Below, in pieces: positions 8,866 through 47,835 of a stretch of DNA of 64,000 nucleotides. The stretch's first letter is position 1. Each line of letters begins with the position of its first letter. The notes under the pieces were generated by a model, which did not search any database, had not been told where the DNA came from, and was given only the letters and a program-made list of their open reading frames with translations. The DNA comes from Paenibacillus qinlingensis (GTDB lineage Bacteria; Bacillota; Bacilli; Paenibacillales; NBRC-103111). Location of the stretch: the NCBI RefSeq assembly GCF_013204845.1, contig NZ_JABMKY010000020.1, positions 1 through 64,000 of the forward strand, written 5' to 3'. Position numbers and translations under genes: made by a program.

Positions 8866-9228
8866 AAATAAATGGATTTTATGCAGTTATATCTTTCGAT
8901 TCTCCGAGCGAACGCAGAATAGATGGATAATCTCAGGCTGTCGAGAAAGTCTCGCGGTGTTTTCGACAGTTTGATTTTTATGTGGTGGATCTCTCCTCTT
9001 AAAAGAAAAATCGATTTAAAACAATCTGAGAGACAACGTTCGAGTCTAAAAGTGACGTTAATTAATTCAAACTTGAAAAAGGGCACTTTCTCGACAGCCT
9101 GATAATCTACAGTTAATTTTAACTAATTTACACAATTAAGCTAAAATTGGTGAAATTAACTACATGGTTTCCATTTAATTCGAGTTTTGGAGGAGATTTC
9201 TCACAAATAACAGTATATTTTCCAGTTA
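8866..9228. repeat. Dispersed intergenic repeat, copy 1 (interrupted by a MITE)
   Basis: This stretch aligns with 18466-18662: both carry GCAGAATAGATGG, CTACAGTTA, TTAACTACATG, TTTAATT/TTAAATGGAGTTTT and TTTTCCAGTTAT words in the same order. The left half (8866-8933) and right half (9102-9228) are split by a 168-bp insertion. The repeats form alternating complementary words (TAACTGTA and TACAGTTA types) able to pair. No credible gene lies in 8744-9225. Confidence 0.82.
8934..9101. mobile_element. 168-bp MITE with 17-bp inverted ends and 7-bp target duplication
   Basis: The left end CAGGCTGTCGAGAAAGT (8934-8950) is the exact reverse complement of the right end (9085-9101). The element is flanked by ATAATCT on both sides (8927-8933 and 9102-9108). 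Removing the element and one duplicate restores GATGGATAATCTACAGTTAA, matching the undisturbed sister repeat at about 18512. It has no transposase; a short reading frame across it has no support. It must have been moved by an enzyme encoded elsewhere. Confidence 0.9.
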
Positions 9229-10092
9229 TTCCTCATGCTCAGGCTTATCGGCCAGCCAGTCCTCCAACGTAGCCACACGTGATGGATATTTGTAGCTTCT
9301 GGCTAGAAAGCCAATACCGTGCTTCACCATGGGATCCTGATCTGTAGGCTGATAACGCAAATCAACACTCCAACGAACCGTATCAGACATGTTCGGGGTC
9401 GACATATGCAGGCAGCGATCGTTGAACAGAATCGCGCTTCCTGCGGGTACAGGCAGGGCAACGGTTTCCGTTTTGCCTAACTGACTATCTTTGAGCGCTG
9501 TATAGCCTGTTCCTGTGTAAGTCTCACGATGCCACTTGAGCACGCGTTTGCGATGTGTCTGGGGTTTGATATGGAGGCATCCATTCACTTCATTCGCATC
9601 GACAAGCGGGATCCAGACCGTAATAACAGGATTCGCATTAGCATCTGGCCAATAGGATTTATCTTGATGCCAAGGTACTGCGCCAGCGGCTACTTTTGGG
9701 ACTTTCGGTCGCACGTTATATACCGGATTCGCGAAAAGCTCACCGCCAATTAACGATTCTACCGCATCCAAAATTTTCGGATTGCTCATCAAAGTGAAGT
9801 ACCCAGGTATTCGGTCGCGCCAGCTTCGGCCATATTTGAGAAAGTTTTCGGCAGATAGATTCTGAAATAGCTCAGCTAAGCGATTGGGAAATGGCCGATC
9901 TTCCAGCTTATCCGTAATCAGTCCATCCGCGAACAGTTCGTCCGCAATCATCGACACCTTCTGAGTCATCGCTTCACGAGCGGAGGCTAAATCTTCTTCC
10001 GATAATAAATGCGGGATGATGAGATAGCCCTGTTCCTCGTAAAACTGCGATTGTTCGGTAGTTAAACTTCCGCTTCCATTTTGCTTAATCAA
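9226..10092 (-). CDS. Phytanoyl-CoA dioxygenase (PhyH) family protein
   Basis: I start at TTG 10092, eight bases after GGAGGG; this gives 288 residues. The open frame extends 30 codons further but that part lacks a ribosome site and family similarity. The family uses Fe(II) and 2-oxoglutarate to hydroxylate small organic substrates. Visible iron ligands are H142 and D144 in VPWHQDKSYW and a distal H229 in DRCLHMSTPN; R-x-S-x-D-L-R-Y near residue 240 fits 2-oxoglutarate binding. It is divergent from an AraC regulator at 10233, as is a second PhyH gene at 42228. The substrate is unknown. Confidence 0.87.
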   Translation of the reverse strand: MIKQNGSGSLTTEQSQFYEEQGYLIIPHLLSEEDLASAREAMTQKVSMIADELFADGLITDKLEDRPFPNRLAELFQNLSAENFLKYGRSWRDRIPGYFTLMSNPKILDAVESLIGGELFANPVYNVRPKVPKVAAGAVPWHQDKSYWPDANANPVITVWIPLVDANEVNGCLHIKPQTHRKRVLKWHRETYTGTGYTALKDSQLGKTETVALPVPAGSAILFNDRCLHMSTPNMSDTVRWSVDLRYQPTDQDPMVKHGIGFLARSYKYPSRVATLEDWLADKPEHEE

Positions 10093-10232
10093 TCTACTCA
10101 CCCTCCAACATGTGTTGTAATATAGAAAATATAACACTTCAAGTGATTGTTGTATTTGCTTCTGTGTTCGTCTATTGATCAATTCTTCCGGTCAATCTTA
10201 TCGTCAATTTACTATCGATTGCGAGGGTTACT

Positions 10233-38169: not shown

Positions 38170-39087
38170 ATGAAACCTTATAATTTGGAACCATTTCGCG
38201 GTATAATTATCGCATTATATGCTAGCTACGATGAGCAGGGAGAAATGAATACAGACGCAGTGCGTCGATTGGCTCGCTATTACGCTACGTCGGGTGTGAA
38301 AGGACTTTATGTTGGCGGCAGTTCAGGTGAGGGTATGCTGCAAACCGTTGAAGAACGTAAGGTGATCCTTGCGGCTGTGATGGAAGAAGTAGGTGATGAG
38401 CTGACGATTATTGCCCATGTGGGAGCAGCTGCCACGCGAGATAGTGTTGAGCTTGCCAAGCATGCAGCAGAAGTTGGGGCGCACGCCGTATCAGCCGTTC
38501 CCGCCATTTATTATCGGTTGTCACCGGATAGCGTGGAGGGGCATTGGCAGGCTATTATCGATGCGACATCCCTGCCATTCATCATTTATCACATTCCTCA
38601 GACGACAGGCTTTCATTTATCGAAAAGTTTGTTAATGAAAATGGCTGCACAAGACAAGGTTATTGGCGTAAAGATTTCTGCAGAGAGCACCTTTGAACTT
38701 CAACAGTTTAAAGCGGCTGGAGGCAGTGAGTTCCTCGTATTCAACGGACCAGATGAGCAGTATTTAGCTGGACGGAGTATTGGTGCAGACGGAGGCATTG
38801 GCGGAACGTATGGGGTGATGCCCGAGCTATTCCTCAAAATTGAACAATGCTATGTGGCAGGGAATATGCGCGAAGCACAGGAGTGGCAGTTCAAGGTGAA
38901 TGAACTCATCGTTGAATTATTGTCTTTCCCTTCCTTATATGGAGCTTGCAAAGCGGTTCTAAAGCTGCGCGGGTACGATATTGGAGAGCCGAGGATGCCA
39001 TTATTACCTTGCACACCGGGGGATCAAGGAAGAATCGAAGAGTTGAATGTGCGAATCATGACACTGGTTGAGCTAGCAAAGGCATAA
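38170..39087 (+). CDS. nanA: N-acetylneuraminate lyase
   Basis: A 305-residue DHDPS/NAL-family aldolase, ATG 38170 after CGGAGGAAAA. It cleaves N-acetylneuraminate to N-acetylmannosamine and pyruvate through a Schiff base. Visible features: YVGGSSGEGMLQTVEER (carboxylate-binding GGSSGE), Tyr140 in FIIYHIP, and Lys168 in IGVKIS, matching Tyr137 and Lys165 of the E. coli enzyme. Adjacent nanE and a ROK kinase make the NAL assignment much more likely than dihydrodipicolinate synthase. Confidence 0.92.
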   Translation: MKPYNLEPFRGIIIALYASYDEQGEMNTDAVRRLARYYATSGVKGLYVGGSSGEGMLQTVEERKVILAAVMEEVGDELTIIAHVGAAATRDSVELAKHAAEVGAHAVSAVPAIYYRLSPDSVEGHWQAIIDATSLPFIIYHIPQTTGFHLSKSLLMKMAAQDKVIGVKISAESTFELQQFKAAGGSEFLVFNGPDEQYLAGRSIGADGGIGGTYGVMPELFLKIEQCYVAGNMREAQEWQFKVNELIVELLSFPSLYGACKAVLKLRGYDIGEPRMPLLPCTPGDQGRIEELNVRIMTLVELAKA

Positions 39088-39104
39088 GTGGGGGAGTGTT
39101 ACGG

Positions 39105-39788
39105 ATGGAACGTAGGGAAATATTCCCAATGAGCGGTTTGATCGTCTCCTGTCAGGCGCTGGAGGATGAACCTCTTCATGGCGGTGATGCAATGGCGAAA
39201 ATGGCAAGAGCAGCTGTTCAATCGGGTGCCATTGGTATTCGGACGAACGGGGTTCACGATATTTTGATGATAAAAAAAGAAGTAGATGTGCCTGTGATTG
39301 GACTTATCAAAAGAGAAATGCCTGGCTCCAGTGTGTTTATAACACCAACGTTGGACGAAGTAAAAGCCATTGTGATCGCAGGCGCTGATGTCGTTGCGCT
39401 TGATGTCACGAATCGGGAAGGCCGGTTGGAAGCAGTGAAGCCGCTTATCGAATGGGCTCATGAAATGGGAGCCGCTGTTATGGCAGATATTTCAACCTTC
39501 GAAGAAGGGTTAGCAGCAGAAGCGCTGGGTGTCGATTTCATCGGGACGACGCTTGCTGGCTATACACCGTACAGTACGCAGCTAGATGGGCCTGACTTCG
39601 AATTACTTGAACAGCTTTGTGCAAAAGTTAGTGTGCCTGTTGTTGCGGAAGGTCGGATTTGGACGCCAGAGGAAGCAGTGAAAGCAATGGCTTGTGGCGC
39701 TGCCTATGTCGTGGTGGGGAGTGCAATCACACGACCGCAGCTCATTACGGAGCGCTATGTGAAGGCGTTATCTTCTAAGCATGTGTAG
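39105..39788 (+). CDS. nanE: N-acetylmannosamine-6-phosphate 2-epimerase
   Basis: ATG 39105 is nine bases after GGGGGAG; a GTG at 39096 is too close to the site. The 227-residue TIM-barrel protein converts ManNAc-6-P to GlcNAc-6-P. Family words: LIVSCQALEDEPLHG, GAIGIRTNGV, VIGLIKRE with the catalytic Lys69, DVVALDVT, FIGTTLAGYTPYS, VVAEGRIWTPEEA and GAAYVVVGSAITRPQ. It lies 17 bases after nanA. Confidence 0.95.
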   Translation: MERREIFPMSGLIVSCQALEDEPLHGGDAMAKMARAAVQSGAIGIRTNGVHDILMIKKEVDVPVIGLIKREMPGSSVFITPTLDEVKAIVIAGADVVALDVTNREGRLEAVKPLIEWAHEMGAAVMADISTFEEGLAAEALGVDFIGTTLAGYTPYSTQLDGPDFELLEQLCAKVSVPVVAEGRIWTPEEAVKAMACGAAYVVVGSAITRPQLITERYVKALSSKHV

Positions 39789-39799
39789 GGGGTATACGA

Positions 39800-40756
39800 A
39801 TGGTAACTTATACGTATGAGCCCCTAGCAGATTATGCAATTGGTGTTGATGTTGGAGGTACCAAGATCAACGCTGGCCTCGTCAATGCACAAGGTGAAGT
39901 CTTGTGTATGGTCAGTTTAGCGACACTGGCGGGTGAAGTGAGGACGGTTGATCGTATTCAGCAAGCCATTCATGAGGTGATCGCGGAAGCTCAGAGTTTG
40001 GGGCCAGACCTGTTTCTAAAAGGCATTGGTGTCGGAAGTGCAGGGCAAATCGATTGGGCGAGCGGCTCGATTCGCTCTGCGTCTGACATTATCCCCGGTT
40101 ATGCGGGAACGGCGCTTAAGGATATTCTTCACGAGCACTTCCAGCTGCCTGTTATCGTCGATAACGATGTGAATGTGCTGGCTCTGACAGAAAAACATTT
40201 GGGAGCTGGACGAGGCGTGGAACATTTCCTATGCCTTGCGCTGGGCACTGGTGTTGGCGGCGCACTCGTTGTGGATGGCCAACTGGTCCACGGTGCTTGG
40301 GGCGGCGGCGGTGAGCTTGGCCACATTTCGGTTGATTTCAGAGGCATCCCATGTGTATGTGGCGGGATTGGATGCTTGGAGCAATATGCGTCGGGGACTT
40401 CTATTGCGAGACGTATGCGCGAGAAGCTTGCACGCATGGGGATAGCGGATGATTCCGTGGATACAAGGGAGGTATTTGCTCGTTGGCATGCGGGAGATCT
40501 GGCGGCGAATGAGCTTATGCAGGAAACCTTGTCGGCGCTAGGATCGGCCATAGCCTCTTTCATTCATATGTTTAACCCCGCGTTAATCGTAATTGGCGGC
40601 GGGGTAGCCGAAGCAGGTGATCACTTGTTTACCGAACTGCGGAAAGAAGTAGCACGAAAAACGATGCCTGCCATGTTGGATGGTGTTCGAATTGAGCCAG
40701 CGTATCGTGGCAATTGGAGCGGTATGATTGGTGCAGCACTGCAATTGTGGGAATGA
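39800..40756 (+). CDS. nanK: ROK-family sugar kinase, probable N-acetylmannosamine kinase
   Basis: A 318-residue protein, ATG 39800 after AGGGGG. Features: phosphate-binding GVDVGGTKINAGLV, catalytic VIVDNDVNVLAL, LALGTGVGGALVVDG, and the ROK zinc site GH...CVCGGIGCLEQYASG. In the nan pathway this step phosphorylates ManNAc between NanA and NanE. ROK kinases have varied specificity, so the substrate is taken from context. NagA and NagB are not present here and must be encoded elsewhere. Confidence 0.85.
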   Translation: MVTYTYEPLADYAIGVDVGGTKINAGLVNAQGEVLCMVSLATLAGEVRTVDRIQQAIHEVIAEAQSLGPDLFLKGIGVGSAGQIDWASGSIRSASDIIPGYAGTALKDILHEHFQLPVIVDNDVNVLALTEKHLGAGRGVEHFLCLALGTGVGGALVVDGQLVHGAWGGGGELGHISVDFRGIPCVCGGIGCLEQYASGTSIARRMREKLARMGIADDSVDTREVFARWHAGDLAANELMQETLSALGSAIASFIHMFNPALIVIGGGVAEAGDHLFTELRKEVARKTMPAMLDGVRIEPAYRGNWSGMIGAALQLWE

Positions 40757-42227: not shown

Positions 42228-42992
42228 ATGCAAAGTCAAGTTAAGGAACGTTTAGCACCGTTAGGGGAAAAAGAATTGGCGTTTTTTCATGAGCATGGGT
42301 ATTATTTGTGGAAAAAAGGGTGTAGTGCAGATCTTGTAGATGCCTTTAATGGACACATTCACAGTATACGTTCAGCAGATGAGATAGCCGAATGGGCACT
42401 CCCCAAAAAAGGCAGTCAGCAAGTAACAGATAAGGACAGGTTCTCGGTGCGATTATTTAATCCGCATAAACATGACGGTTTTTCACAGCAAATTATGAAG
42501 CTCCCTATCGTGCGCGGAGCACTTGCTCAAATGATGGGTGACGAGGCCGTTTGTGTGCAAAGTATGTACTTCTATAAGGAGCCAGGCTCACCAGGGCAAG
42601 CGCCACATCAGGACTACTACTATATCAAGGACGACCCGAAGTCGATGATTGCTGCTTGGATTGCTTTGGAGGAAGTCGTGGATGAAGAAAACGGCTGTTT
42701 GTGGGTTATCCCTGGTACGCATAAGTTGGGCCTGTTACCACATGGAAAAGTAACGAATCTGGAAGAACATGAAAGCTGGACAGATGAAACGGAAGGTGCA
42801 GACTTGAGTCGAGAGATTCCAGTTATTATGGAAAAAGGAGACATTTTATTTTTTCATGAGCTACTCATTCACTCGTCCTATAAAAATCGCAGCAAGGATC
42901 GCTGGCGCCGCTCGTACGTGTGCCACTATATCCGCAATGATTCCAGTGTCTTGTTCCGTGAAGATTTACGCGTGAAATATCCGTTATACTAG
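42228..42992 (+). CDS. Phytanoyl-CoA dioxygenase (PhyH) family protein
   Basis: A 254-residue Fe(II)/2-oxoglutarate dioxygenase, ATG 42228 after AAAGGGGA. Iron ligands are H127 and D129 in APHQDYYYIKD and a distal His in the FFHELLIHSSYKNRS segment, with Arg residues (RWRRSYVCHYI) suited to 2-oxoglutarate binding. The ENGCLWVIPGTHKLGLLPH stretch is typical of PhyH proteins. It shares little local sequence with the other PhyH protein beyond these motifs, although both face an AraC gene. Substrate unknown. Confidence 0.88.
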   Translation: MQSQVKERLAPLGEKELAFFHEHGYYLWKKGCSADLVDAFNGHIHSIRSADEIAEWALPKKGSQQVTDKDRFSVRLFNPHKHDGFSQQIMKLPIVRGALAQMMGDEAVCVQSMYFYKEPGSPGQAPHQDYYYIKDDPKSMIAAWIALEEVVDEENGCLWVIPGTHKLGLLPHGKVTNLEEHESWTDETEGADLSREIPVIMEKGDILFFHELLIHSSYKNRSKDRWRRSYVCHYIRNDSSVLFREDLRVKYPLY

Positions 42993-43136: not shown

Positions 43137-44186
43137 TTGTCATTAATTGAGGTTAAGCATTTACGGAAAACATTTGAAACCGATGTGAGACGAACAGGGC
43201 GATTTGCCACAATTCGGAGCTTGATTAAGCCAGAGAAGCGAGAGATGGTCGCGGTCGAGGATATTTCTTTTTCCATTGAAAAAGGAGAGAGCGTTGCCTA
43301 TTTGGGACCGAATGGAGCGGGTAAATCGACAACGATCAAGATGCTGACCGGTATCCTGGAGCCGAGCGGTGGAAGTATTGAGGTGGCGGGCTTGATCCCG
43401 CATAAAAGCAGAAAGCTGAGCTCTTATCAAATAGGTGTCGTATTTGGACAACGGAGCCAGTTGCTGTTCGATTTGCCTGTGAAGGATTCGTATGATTTAT
43501 TACGGTATATGTATAGCATCTCGTGGGAGCAATATCACAGAAATTTACGTGAATTTGCAGAGGTTCTGGAGGTTGAGCATCTTCTTAATCGTCAAGTGAG
43601 AACGCTTTCGCTTGGTCAGCGGATGCGTTGCGAAATTCTTGCTTCCTTGCTTCACGAGCCGGATATTCTCTTTCTGGATGAGCCTACCATTGGGCTGGAT
43701 GTTGTGGCGAAGGAGCGAATTCGCGCTTTTATCGAGAAGATTAATCGGGAAAAAGGTGTCACACTACTGCTGACAACACATGACATGCATGATATCGAAA
43801 GGTTGTGTCACCGGACGATGATTATTGATAAAGGCCGCCTCATATATGATGGCAGCTTGCAGCATATTCGCGATCATTATGCGACGGAGCGTCAAATTAA
43901 AGCAACCTTCGAGGACACAAAGCTCGCCGAAGCAGCTGCTTCGCTATTCATGGGCTTCAATGTGCACACGTTGGTTGAAGAGCGGATGCTCAAAATTTCC
44001 TATGATCAGCATCACATCGATACGTCCATATTACTTAAGCATCTGTTAGAGAAGACTCAGCCGCGTGATTTGACCATGCAAGATGAGAACATCGACGCTT
44101 TAATATCTCGGATTTATCGCGAAGGACTTTCCGATTCGCCGCAGGAGCGGCAACACGAGTTGGAAGGTGTGGTTATCCCCTCATGA
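43137..44186 (+). CDS. ABC-2 exporter ATP-binding protein
   Basis: TTG 43137 is six bases after AAAGGGGAG and gives 349 residues. Walker A GPNGAGKST, Q-loop FGQRSQL, signature LSLGQRM, Walker B ILFLDEP and the switch His in TTHDMHD are all present. The first ~40 residues contain the RxxG...SLIKPEKREMVAVEDISF extension seen in ATPases that pair with PF06182 permeases. The C-terminal ~100 residues are a regulatory extension. The stop overlaps the next start (ATGA), so the three genes form one operon. The exported compound is unknown. Confidence 0.93.
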   Translation: MSLIEVKHLRKTFETDVRRTGRFATIRSLIKPEKREMVAVEDISFSIEKGESVAYLGPNGAGKSTTIKMLTGILEPSGGSIEVAGLIPHKSRKLSSYQIGVVFGQRSQLLFDLPVKDSYDLLRYMYSISWEQYHRNLREFAEVLEVEHLLNRQVRTLSLGQRMRCEILASLLHEPDILFLDEPTIGLDVVAKERIRAFIEKINREKGVTLLLTTHDMHDIERLCHRTMIIDKGRLIYDGSLQHIRDHYATERQIKATFEDTKLAEAAASLFMGFNVHTLVEERMLKISYDQHHIDTSILLKHLLEKTQPRDLTMQDENIDALISRIYREGLSDSPQERQHELEGVVIPS

Positions 44187-44992
44187 ATACTCTCCAACGA
44201 CTAGGCGGAATGTCACGAATTGCGGTTCGCCAGCGCATGCAGTTTAGATTTGATTTTATGATGACACTTGTGTCAACACTTATGTTCTGTGTGCTCTATT
44301 ACATGCTGTGGAAAGCGATTTATATGTATGGGAGCGGGCAGGTATTGCCTTGGGAGCAATTAATTACCTATGTTATGGTAGGTCAAACGATTAATTTTGC
44401 CCGCTGGTCACCTGCTGAGCGTGCGCCTACCTATGCCATGGCGTTACGTGTCCGCTCGGGGGACATTGCACTGGATCTGATCCGACCGGTGGACTTCCAA
44501 GTACAGCGATTTGTAGAAGCCGCAGGATTTTTTGCTGTGGAAATGTTATGGGTGAATATTCCTGCTCTGCTGCTGCTGATCTTCGGACTTGGCATTCAAT
44601 CACCACCAAGCTTGGGGGCTGGAGCTGCTTTTCTGTTAAGTCTTATCATCGGTTTCCTAGTGGCGTTCAGCATTAACTCCATTATTATGATGATTTCGTT
44701 CATGACGACGAATACGTTCGGGGTACAGTTGGCGAAACGAGCGATGATGGATATTTTCGCAGGAACGTTGATCCCATTCGATTTTTTTCCTAGCAGCTTA
44801 CAGACCGTTCTGACCTATTTACCTTTCCAAGCAATGGCCTATATCCCATTATCAATTTATACAGGCAAGTTAACGGGTGCGCATATGGGCTATGCGCTAT
44901 TGGAGCAGCTTGCGTGGGCGCTTGTTATGATTGTTATTAGTCGATTGTTGTGGATGAAAGCAGCGAAACGACTAGCAATTAACGGGGGGTGA
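44183..44992 (+). CDS. ABC-2 exporter permease, first subunit
   Basis: A 269-residue protein with six predicted membrane segments, starting in a four-base overlap with the ATPase gene. It resembles the PF06182 (ABC2_membrane_6, former DUF990) group, with the cytoplasmic stretch RVRSGDIALDLIRPVDFQVQ that follows the second or third segment. It pairs with the next gene. Confidence 0.85.
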   Translation: MNTLQRLGGMSRIAVRQRMQFRFDFMMTLVSTLMFCVLYYMLWKAIYMYGSGQVLPWEQLITYVMVGQTINFARWSPAERAPTYAMALRVRSGDIALDLIRPVDFQVQRFVEAAGFFAVEMLWVNIPALLLLIFGLGIQSPPSLGAGAAFLLSLIIGFLVAFSINSIIMMISFMTTNTFGVQLAKRAMMDIFAGTLIPFDFFPSSLQTVLTYLPFQAMAYIPLSIYTGKLTGAHMGYALLEQLAWALVMIVISRLLWMKAAKRLAINGG

Positions 44993-44996
44993 GAGG

Positions 44997-45818
44997 ATGT
45001 TAGCACCAAAGAGAAGTTTTATGGGGCAGGTAGCCTATCTGATTGGGATGTATGGTCAATTTCTAAAAGTGTATGTCAAAACGTTGGTTGAATATCGTGC
45101 GGATACGATTATTGCGATCATTGCGGGGATCGTTGCGCAGGGGAGTACGTTGATTTTTTTGACGGTCATTTTCAAACGCATTCCGATGTTGGCAGGTTGG
45201 GACTACAACGAGTTAGTCTTTATGTTCGGACTTGCGGCCACGGGCCGAGCACTGAATCAAACTTTTTTCAATGCGCCTTTCATGCTAACAGGCAACATTC
45301 GGAATGGACGGATGGATATGATGATGGTGCGGCCAGTTGGTGTGCTTTTTCAAACCATAGGCTTCTCGCAAGAATTGAATGGCGTCGGCCAGTTGATTAC
45401 AGGTATTGCTATTATGGGGTATGCGGGGTCCCATTTGGATATGAGTTGGACGTTCTTAAGCGTGCTTTATGTCGTGATTGCTTTGCTATGTAGTGCTCTT
45501 ATTCAATTCTCGATTCTACTAACGATTAGTGTATTAACGTTCTGGTTTCAAGAGATTCGATCTCTGATTTATCCAATAACTTGGTTATATGATTTCACTA
45601 GGTACCCTATGCAAATCTTTCATCCCGTTCTACGTGGATTGTTAACTTACGTCATCCCATACTCATTGGCCAGCTTCTATCCAGCGGCGTATGTATTGCG
45701 ACCAGAGCAATACGGCTGGGCCGCTTGGGGCGTTCCAGCCGTAACCTTGGTGGTCGTCATGGGGGCTTATTTTATATGGTCACAGGGGTTAAGGCGTTAT
45801 TCGAGTGTGGCGGGATAA
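44997..45818 (+). CDS. ABC-2 exporter permease, second subunit
   Basis: A 273-residue protein with six membrane segments, ATG 44997 after GAGAGG, four bases after the previous stop. The stretch NIRNGRMDMMMVRPVGVLFQ is the counterpart of RVRSGDIALDLIRPVDF in its partner, showing common ancestry. Its 3' end overlaps the end of a small opposing gene by 47 bases. Confidence 0.85.
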   Translation: MLAPKRSFMGQVAYLIGMYGQFLKVYVKTLVEYRADTIIAIIAGIVAQGSTLIFLTVIFKRIPMLAGWDYNELVFMFGLAATGRALNQTFFNAPFMLTGNIRNGRMDMMMVRPVGVLFQTIGFSQELNGVGQLITGIAIMGYAGSHLDMSWTFLSVLYVVIALLCSALIQFSILLTISVLTFWFQEIRSLIYPITWLYDFTRYPMQIFHPVLRGLLTYVIPYSLASFYPAAYVLRPEQYGWAAWGVPAVTLVVVMGAYFIWSQGLRRYSSVAG

Positions 45819-46159: not shown

Positions 46160-46192
46160 TTGACATTGACAGTGAGAACCATTATCATTCGT
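46160..46192 (+). promoter_or_regulatory. Promoter overlapped by a Fur box
   Basis: TTGACA (46160-46165), a 17-base spacer and TATCAT (46183-46188) form a good sigma-A promoter. The segment 46174-46192 matches the 19-bp Fur consensus at 13 of 19 positions and covers the -10 box. Confidence 0.75.
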
Positions 46193-46207
46193 TGTAGAGG
46201 ACTAAAT

Positions 46208-46226
46208 GAAAATGATTATCAATAGG
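46208..46226. promoter_or_regulatory. Second Fur box
   Basis: GAAAATGATTATCAATAGG matches the Fur consensus at 15 of 19 positions, and its TGAAAATGATTATCA core matches the 7-1-7 Bacillus Fur box at 14 of 15. It ends at the ribosome site of the next gene, so it would block the early transcript. Confidence 0.85.
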
Positions 46227-46234
46227 TGACGAGA

Positions 46235-46993
46235 ATGAACGGCATCATGAGGGGGCTAGTCGATATGGAACATAGCGAGAATGGTATTGGCGTCGGGACC
46301 TTGCAGGTTATAGCAGATTTTCAATTAGAACGCTGGCTGCATACCCTTACTCATGAAGATCGTGGGACAGATTCGCAGGATCTGAATTGGCAGCAACTTA
46401 CCCAATTCGCAGCGTATCACGCGATCAATGCATGGTATACATTACCACCTGCTGCTCGTACACACCAGGTGTTAAAGAGTGAATTTGAGAAAAAATGGAC
46501 GAATAAAGTGCAAAAATTCGGGAGTGATACCTTTTATGGCGAGGTTAGACATCGCGTCCTTGATCAGTTGTATCACATTCTGACGAAAAAAAGCCGGATC
46601 GAGTGGCCACTTCTTTTATTTGAAAGCATGGACGTATGGGTTGATGAGCTAGATTTGGGATTATCTATGATCGTTCAGGCTATGGAATCTTCAGAAGAAT
46701 CCATTGTAATTCATAAATTTGTCATGGAGGACAGTGCGGCTTCGCTTGCCCTGTTTGCACATATGTCGGTTGTTTTTTGTAACAAAGCGTTTGGAGGGAA
46801 GCCAGTGCAGCTGCAAGTCGTCAATCTGATGAGCGGTAAGCAGCATCGCATCGAGACGAATCAGTTCACAATGGAACAATCGCTCGATTATCTTAGACTG
46901 GTGAAAGATGTGTATTTGGAAAGTCGCAGTTGTACCTGCTGCAGAGAGGACGGACTTCATGGAAATAAATTCGACGTGGCAATCTACCAATGA
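46235..46993 (+). CDS. Unknown Fur-regulated protein with Cys-rich C-terminus
   Basis: ATG 46235 follows AGGTGA; ATG 46265 after GAGGGGG is an equally possible start. The ~252-residue protein is soluble and mainly helical. I do not recognise the family. It ends with a CTCC cluster (SRSCTCCREDG, about 18 residues before the end), able to bind metal or form disulfides. Two Fur boxes precede it, so it should be made when iron is scarce. It overlaps the next gene by 35 bases, which implies co-translation. Confidence 0.7.
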   Translation: MNGIMRGLVDMEHSENGIGVGTLQVIADFQLERWLHTLTHEDRGTDSQDLNWQQLTQFAAYHAINAWYTLPPAARTHQVLKSEFEKKWTNKVQKFGSDTFYGEVRHRVLDQLYHILTKKSRIEWPLLLFESMDVWVDELDLGLSMIVQAMESSEESIVIHKFVMEDSAASLALFAHMSVVFCNKAFGGKPVQLQVVNLMSGKQHRIETNQFTMEQSLDYLRLVKDVYLESRSCTCCREDGLHGNKFDVAIYQ

Positions 46994-47792
46994 CTTGCTG
47001 TCCCTAAAATTTACTACGTTGACAGCATCCAGAGAAGGGGTGTTGTATGCGGGAACGGAAGGGCACGGGGTGGTCCAATTCTCGCCGTTACGTTCCTGGG
47101 AGAGCGCATCAGAAGGTTTGCCAGCACAGGTTCATGTGTACCGATTAGATTGGGTGGAGACGCAGCTATTCGCTTCTACGAGCCATGGATTGTATCATTT
47201 AGAAGAAGAGATCTGGCAGCAAACGAGCGTCACGGATCCCTGTTATGCGGCGATTGGCTGGGGTGATCGATTTGTTCTCACGGAGAACGGCTTGCTCTGT
47301 GGAAATGATGATGAATGGCTGCCGCTGGCCTACCGAGGGAAGAAAACCTATGATTTGCTGGTGACACCCCACTTTATATTCCTAGGCTATGAGGATGGTG
47401 TTGCCTTCTACGATTTATTTACTGGCGAATGGTGCAGTATGCCGCTTAATCAGGCGGTGACCAGTTTAGCAGTGTTCAACACGATGCTCGTCGGGACGAC
47501 GGAGCGTGGGGGGTTAGTTGTAGGCAATAAGAACGGTGGATTCAATCAGCATCGGTTCGATGGGATGTTCTTGAATCGTTTGGTTACGCATCGCGGCGAA
47601 GTCTATGTGTGTGCCAATACAGGGCTATATAAGTTGAGTGAGATCAGAGGGAACGTCATGTTGCATGCTTTAAACGCACAAGCTGAAGTGACGGATCTGC
47701 TGATTTGGCGTGATATGATGGTCATATCGACGCGTGATTCAGGTATTAAATACAAACATGCCGATAAGACAGGTTTTCAAACGGTTTTGTAA
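46959..47792 (+). CDS. Unknown beta-propeller-like protein in the Fur-controlled operon
   Basis: ATG 46959 after AGAGAGGA gives 277 residues. It contains about six to seven repeats of ~40 residues with short glycine-turn units (GVLYAGTEGHGVVQF, TQLFASTSHGLYHLE, RFVLTENGLLCGN, TMLVGTTERGGLVVG, GEVYVCANTGLYKLS, DMMVISTRDSGIKYK), like a two-component-sensor or YVTN-type beta-propeller. No signal peptide, so it is probably cytoplasmic and acts with the upstream Cys-rich protein. A terminator at 47800 ends the operon. Confidence 0.75.
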   Translation: MEINSTWQSTNDLLSLKFTTLTASREGVLYAGTEGHGVVQFSPLRSWESASEGLPAQVHVYRLDWVETQLFASTSHGLYHLEEEIWQQTSVTDPCYAAIGWGDRFVLTENGLLCGNDDEWLPLAYRGKKTYDLLVTPHFIFLGYEDGVAFYDLFTGEWCSMPLNQAVTSLAVFNTMLVGTTERGGLVVGNKNGGFNQHRFDGMFLNRLVTHRGEVYVCANTGLYKLSEIRGNVMLHALNAQAEVTDLLIWRDMMVISTRDSGIKYKHADKTGFQTVL

Positions 47793-47799
47793 GAGATAG

Positions 47800-47835
47800 A
47801 AGCTCCCAGCGATTGTATGCTGGGAGCTTTTTTTG
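47800..47835. terminator. Intrinsic terminator after the Fur-controlled operon
   Basis: AAGCTCCCAGC pairs with GCTGGGAGCTT around an eight-base loop and is followed by a T run. Confidence 0.9.

Follow-up and report, generated by a model that had tools for sequence, protein, structure and literature searches.

The 64 kb stretch of DNA analysed here (the window) contained a two-gene operon encoding a pseudo-nuclease (A) and a beta-propeller (B), and its sequence supports control of the operon by Fur. The evidence, all of it computed, comprised the Fur boxes and their conservation, the folds of the two proteins, the missing catalytic motif of A, and the varied gene orders in which A, B and flavodoxin are linked. 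On the basis of linkage and regulation, there is about an even chance that A and B are accessory proteins of an iron-sparing flavodoxin module of Bacilli. Relatives of A and B are often located beside a flavodoxin gene, and the two proteins therefore probably aid electron transfer when iron is scarce. The locus represents a variation on an operon type already known and not a wholly new system.

Layout and predicted Fur control of the operon

The operon and its signals were located as follows.

46160–46188, + strand: promoter, with a -35 element TTGACA (46160–46165), a 17-bp spacer and a -10 element TATCAT (46183–46188), agreeing with 11 of 12 consensus positions.
46173–46187, no strand: Fur box 1, TGAGAACCATTATCA, with 2 mismatches to TGATAATNATTATCA.
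46207–46221, no strand: Fur box 2, TGAAAATGATTATCA, downstream of the promoter and ahead of the ribosome site, with 1 mismatch to the same pattern.
46225–46230, + strand: ribosome site AGGTGA of ORF A, read by eye.
46235–46993, + strand: ORF A, a 252-aa pseudo-nuclease of PD-(D/E)XK (AddB/Cas4-like) fold, assigned from homologs, a structure model, a fold search and a PF12705 profile match.
46709–46717, + strand: codons of Ile159-His160-Lys161, the inferred D/E-x-K place in the third strand, with the acid absent and the Lys kept in a 132-row alignment.
46931–46942, + strand: CTCC (C233, C235 and C236) near the C-terminus of A, read from the sequence.
46959–47792, + strand: ORF B, a 277-aa beta-propeller, assigned from homologs, a structure model and a fold search.
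47800–47834, + strand: likely terminator, an 11-bp stem (47800–47829) followed by TTTTT; the stem was computed (the listing gave the - strand only) and the T run on the + strand was read by eye.

The mechanical ORF of A ran from a GTG at 46226, and the ATG at 46235 has AGGTGA directly before it. The start codon of B (ATG 46959) lay inside ORF A, with an overlap of 35 bp, as had been described in the initial annotation. TTGACA-17-TATCAT was the top-scoring of three promoter-like sites in the region, a number of sites that shuffled sequences also gave. Fur box 1 overlapped the end of the spacer and the -10 element of this promoter, and both boxes were of the 7-1-7 type, situated over or next to the promoter. 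The initial annotation was thus right about two Fur boxes, one of them over a near-consensus promoter; the second box, which it had placed at the ribosome site, is present but is located just upstream of that site and not on it. Control by Zur or PerR was considered and set aside, because both boxes are closer to the consensus of Fur. No RNA element in the window matched Rfam at gathering cut-offs.

Four sites with no more than 2 mismatches to the Fur pattern were found in the window, including boxes 1 and 2, whereas shuffled versions of the 64 kb contained a mean of 0.51 and never reached four. The whole genome contained 130 such sites, compared with 38 for a reversed control pattern. In six genomes (the window's own and five close ones), all 30 positions of the two boxes were invariant; in the surroundings of both boxes, 128 of 200 positions were invariant in the same genomes.

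Conservation was followed further in a neighbourhood survey of 190 loci (L035–L154 and L189–L258, some with B only), which yielded 138 distinct A proteins, the window's included, distinct meaning different in the last 120 residues. Most of these were from Paenibacillus, so that the members are not independent; six were shorter than 195 aa, and L257 was counted twice, as two pieces. For 125 of the 137 A genes with enough sequence, a Fur box with at most 2 mismatches was located between -300 and +100 of the operon start, the first start codon being taken, which shifted box positions in places. At a threshold of at most 1 mismatch, a box was found for 115 of the 137 A genes and for 81 of the 1010 further long ORFs in these loci, a background that includes shadow ORFs and neighbours sharing the same intergenic stretch. 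The tested stretch was free of a box for 12 A genes (L060, L063, L133, L141, L143, L148, L150, L228, L234, L246, L255, and L257), and in six of these loci (L060, L063, L141, L143, L148, and L150) a box with no more than 2 mismatches was located outside that stretch or before another first gene. Unlinked B genes carried their own Fur box in all 12 cases examined, one of which (L076) was a short copy. The proposed Fur control is supported by this conservation. Homologs without Fur boxes and A and B genes unlinked elsewhere had been named in advance as evidence against the proposal; the survey instead revealed conserved boxes, and B was directly downstream of A for 18 of the 138 A proteins, with one further locus (L083) in the order B-flavodoxin-A.

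Other gene groups were observed in the window. An ABC transporter operon upstream of A and B (43137–45818) encoded one ATPase and two ABC2_membrane_6 proteins. Two PhyH-like dioxygenase genes (42228–42992 and 9226–10182) adjoined AraC-type regulators, the gene at 42228 having been tested and the rest read by eye. The region 38170–40756 contained DHDPS-family, NanE and ROK genes behind sugar ABC transporter genes (the transporter assigned by eye), and resembled a sialic-acid or amino-sugar catabolic operon.

The pseudo-nuclease and the propeller

The nearest named relatives of A were found in P. allorhizoplanae, P. qinlingensis, and P. oryzisoli (82–86%), and that of B in Paenibacillus sp. LjRoot153 (96%), which places the window in Paenibacillus. 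Neither protein matched any named family in a Pfam-type search, including any siderophore, haem or iron-transport family, which agrees with the initial annotation on this point. Both are probably cytoplasmic, as had also been suggested, no signal peptide being visible by eye.

The structure model and the fold search predicted a PD-(D/E)XK fold of AddB/Cas4 type for A, and the profile of A matched PF12705 domains in profile-profile comparison. The link to AddB had a probability of 64%, with gaps at the catalytic motifs, in an alignment to AddB-type domains for which 16 of the 30 returned loci were used. Because the alignment was gapped there, the motif places in A were taken from the order of strands in the model. 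A differed from AddB and Cas4-type nucleases (PF12705) in lacking D/E-x-K, in its reduced Cys set in the window protein, and in scoring below the Pfam cut-off: window A had no match to PF12705, and the best relative scanned reached 17.3 bits against a cut-off of 22. D/E-x-K was absent from positions 153–170 (the third strand region) in all 132 aligned A members, the six proteins under 195 aa having been dropped from the 138. Position 159 was I, V, L or M in 132/132, K161 was kept in 130/132, and His62 was present in 111/132. The place of the motif II Asp fell in a gap of the profile alignment between A and AddB-type domains; position 146, suggested by RecB spacing, was not borne out by that alignment. 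In the strand at 141–152, the commonest acid was at position 142 (70/132) and did not occur in the window protein. Judged from these sequences, the A family consists of pseudo-nucleases, seemingly dead relatives of DNA-cutting enzymes. A sequence search of solved structures with A gave no meaningful match. An FhuF-like reductase was ruled out for A by the absent Pfam match, the FhuF domain not being among the 14 families matched by 28 A members at E up to 1; absence of a family from the Foldseek or VIA-align lists does not exclude that family.

The retained nuclease fold raises the alternative that A is a nucleic-acid-binding regulator, in which the AddB/Cas4 groove would be kept without cutting and would act on transcripts or DNA during iron starvation. 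The small FbpABC proteins of Bacillus are thought to act in this way, and the DNA nuclease fold, together with the conserved Lys161 and His62, is consistent with such a role. However, A is not basic (pI 5.6 in the window protein; family median 6.4, range 5.1–10.2), and its usual neighbour is a flavodoxin gene, so that this role is unlikely.

The Cys-cluster assigned to A in the initial annotation was found where it had been described, near the C-terminus, and window A contained this CTCC only. A four-Cys set of the AddB Fe-S cluster type was present in 11 of the 138 distinct A proteins: all 11 members with a C-terminal CxxC-x(4-6)-C also bore an N-terminal Cys motif, and both Cys stretches of these members aligned with the Cys motifs of AddB-type domains. 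The Cys sets of AddB and Cas4 bind a [4Fe-4S] cluster, and by analogy the four-Cys set of A members would bind one as well. A CxCC end occurred in 14 of the 138, the window's own counted, all from the window's genus in the search of relatives; N-terminal Cys alone occurred in nine, and the remaining members had neither motif. The four-Cys state changed at least six times on a tree of A, which does not tell gain from loss; this tree, made by a quick method, has several long branches and comprises the 71 rows that remained once those at or above 80% identity had been removed. AddB-type relatives have the same arrangement, which makes loss the simpler explanation, and the Cys set thus appears to have been lost rather than gained in the A family. 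The CTCC of window A may be what is left of the CxxC-x(4-6)-C seen in other members.

Metal handling, which had been proposed for the pair, is poorly supported, since most homologs have a reduced Cys set or none at all. The same holds for a sensor, in which loss of the [4Fe-4S] cluster of four-Cys members would signal shortage and the CTCC of the window protein would hold another metal. The co-occurrence of the two Cys motifs and their alignment to those of AddB-type domains are in favour of such an iron or Fe-S sensor or metal handler, but a sensor should retain its ligands, and the scarcity of the full set, along with its repeated changes of state, makes this function improbable.

The structure model of B was confident (pLDDT 88.4) and predicted a beta-propeller, as the initial annotation had proposed. 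The closest folds in the fold search were the propellers of two-component regulators and virginiamycin B lyase, from which B differs in being a free single domain with an identity of 9–14%. The propeller family PF23366 had weak matches in 10 of 21 B members (best E 1.4e-5) and none in window B.

Linkage to flavodoxin and distribution

A short-chain flavodoxin gene was located directly upstream of A for 110 of the 138 A proteins and was the commonest neighbour of A, which B was not; 28 of the 138 had no linked flavodoxin. The gene orders included flavodoxin-A-B, flavodoxin-A with B elsewhere, B-flavodoxin-A (L083), and, in the window, A-B with flavodoxin elsewhere. At L143, a gene for an FAD/NAD oxidoreductase, which presumably resembles ferredoxin/flavodoxin reductase, preceded A in place of flavodoxin. 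A DUF2325 gene replaced flavodoxin upstream of A at L148:5634–5933 and L150:5164–5463 (assigned by Pfam for L150 and by likeness for L148), with 2-mismatch Fur boxes before it. Further neighbours were observed at single loci. A gene for a PepSY_TM membrane protein directly followed B at L066:9065–10183 (G011), possibly in the same operon; a second, short B-like ORF was located between a Fur-family regulator gene and nrdI at L076:4195–6864 (G058); and at L139:153–4156 an ABC ATPase gene was located downstream of A on the same strand, where binding-protein and permease genes of siderophore-importer layout followed A, as read by eye.

The window operon contained no flavodoxin gene. Its genome has one short-chain flavodoxin, on another contig (G000:C58:17240–17677), the second match being a 632-aa frame, and a perfect Fur box accompanied this gene at C58:17735–17749. 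The flavodoxin adjoined an MgtC-like gene (the family was tested in L074 and read by eye in L187 and L356); the place beside the MgtC-like gene was occupied by A and flavodoxin in G018 (L074) and by flavodoxin alone in G022 (L356). One such flavodoxin was present in each of 19/19 in-genus genomes tested, and a Fur box was found at the short-chain flavodoxin in 20/20 genomes, the window's own added. On the tree of A, the window subclade (seven rows, each lacking a linked flavodoxin) formed a group (support 84) beside the flavodoxin-A-B members (joint support 98). Since relatives keep flavodoxin beside A, the window operon has either lost its flavodoxin or never had one.

Among 99 related genomes searched, 49 contained homologs of A, and a profile search of 398 genomes of the class detected A in 57; homologs of B were present in 31 of the 99, and the class-wide search of the 398 gave 34 genomes with a B match, those beyond the relatives being weak partial matches to other propellers (the own genome is included in each count). 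A was not found in six of the 31 B genomes (G022, G037, G041, G055, G062, and G088); B was not found in G027, which has A, and was interrupted in the relative G007, where A stands alone. These results do not support the closed A-B pair of the initial annotation, as A is mostly located beside flavodoxin without B, and B can be unlinked or occur without A. That A and B are unrelated members of the Fur regulon sharing a promoter here by chance, as the frequently unlinked B genes with their own Fur boxes and the six genomes without A would allow, is nevertheless quite unlikely, given the 18 adjacent pairs, the order with flavodoxin at L083, the propeller-like protein of the Bacillus flavodoxin operon, and the presence of A in 25 of the 31 B genomes, where the margins 31, 49 and 99 would predict 15, with phylogeny not removed.

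Relation to known systems and proposed role in iron sparing

Three Bacillus loci (L348–L350) had the layout LysR gene, Fur boxes, flavodoxin, propeller-like gene, flavodoxin and dapH, which we take to be ccpC-ykuN-ykuO-ykuP-dapH, the names being given from gene order. The window operon resembles ykuN-ykuO-ykuP in its Fur boxes and in its association with flavodoxins of the short-chain type and with a propeller-like protein some 300 aa long; it differs in that no match to gene A was present at L348–L350 and in that its own operon lacks a flavodoxin. The system can therefore be called undescribed only in part, as a Fur-controlled operon of flavodoxins and a propeller-like protein was already known. 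The protein at the YkuO position was present in 47 of 80 genomes of that Bacillus family and had propeller-repeat Pfam matches that were weak and below the cut-off. The profile of B matched YkuO-position proteins weakly at two of the three loci (E 1.6e-4 and 6e-4 in a small set), and the profile-profile probability was likewise weak (11–30%); B scored higher with a lipoprotein propeller family, which had itself been selected for its resemblance to B. The protein at the YkuO position is thus like B in its regulation, its partner and probably its fold. A was also tested for homology to this protein, and no significant match resulted.

The ykuNOP operon is listed among Fur-regulated genes, and YkuN can feed electrons to NO synthase (PMC4409812). 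The expression of ykuN, ykuO and ykuP increased about 30-fold in B. pumilus under peroxide (PMC3896406), ykuO, ykuP and ykuN were up alongside siderophore genes (PMC4482431), and ykuO was down on mercury (PMC12563154). YkuO is called hypothetical or given without a role in the portions available of sources that include PMC3896406, PMC12563154, and PMC4482431. In GBAA3595-GBAA3596 of Bacillus anthracis, likened here by description, a BNR-repeat protein, of propeller type, adjoins a flavodoxin, and iron starvation induced the former 12.9-fold and the latter 10.6-fold (PMC2742718). A flavodoxin was up 310-fold in nitrogen-fixing Paenibacillus (PMC4774088), and the accessible text of PMC9961900 contained nothing on these genes. 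No report on A or on a flavodoxin-linked pseudo-nuclease was found in the open-licence literature searched.

A role of A and B as accessory proteins of the flavodoxin module would proceed as follows. When iron is plentiful, Fe-Fur on both boxes would block the promoter. When iron is exhausted, A and B would be co-produced with the sole short-chain flavodoxin of the genome, which has its own Fur box on another contig. Flavodoxin is an iron-free substitute for the Fe-S carrier ferredoxin, and would take over from it under these conditions. A, which lacks the metal-binding acids and in this lineage also the complete Cys set, would serve for binding or as an adaptor, with the propeller B as a possible docking scaffold. 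Together, A and B would match client redox enzymes with flavodoxin, or with its reductase, presumably by physical contact.

More tentatively, an Fe-S nuclease domain of AddB/Cas4 type may have lost catalysis, come under Fur, and now serve flavodoxin in many families of Bacilli, as an adaptor, a chaperone or a cluster-gated switch, its own iron cluster having been discarded several times; this wider history is possible but doubtful. If it is true, discarding the cluster would be an iron-sparing change within the iron-sparing system itself. Through this locus, a propeller and another family without a name are connected with one Fur-controlled flavodoxin across many Bacilli. A nuclease fold reused next to flavodoxin, lacking its motif and in many cases the cluster ligands too, would represent a new departure for this fold.
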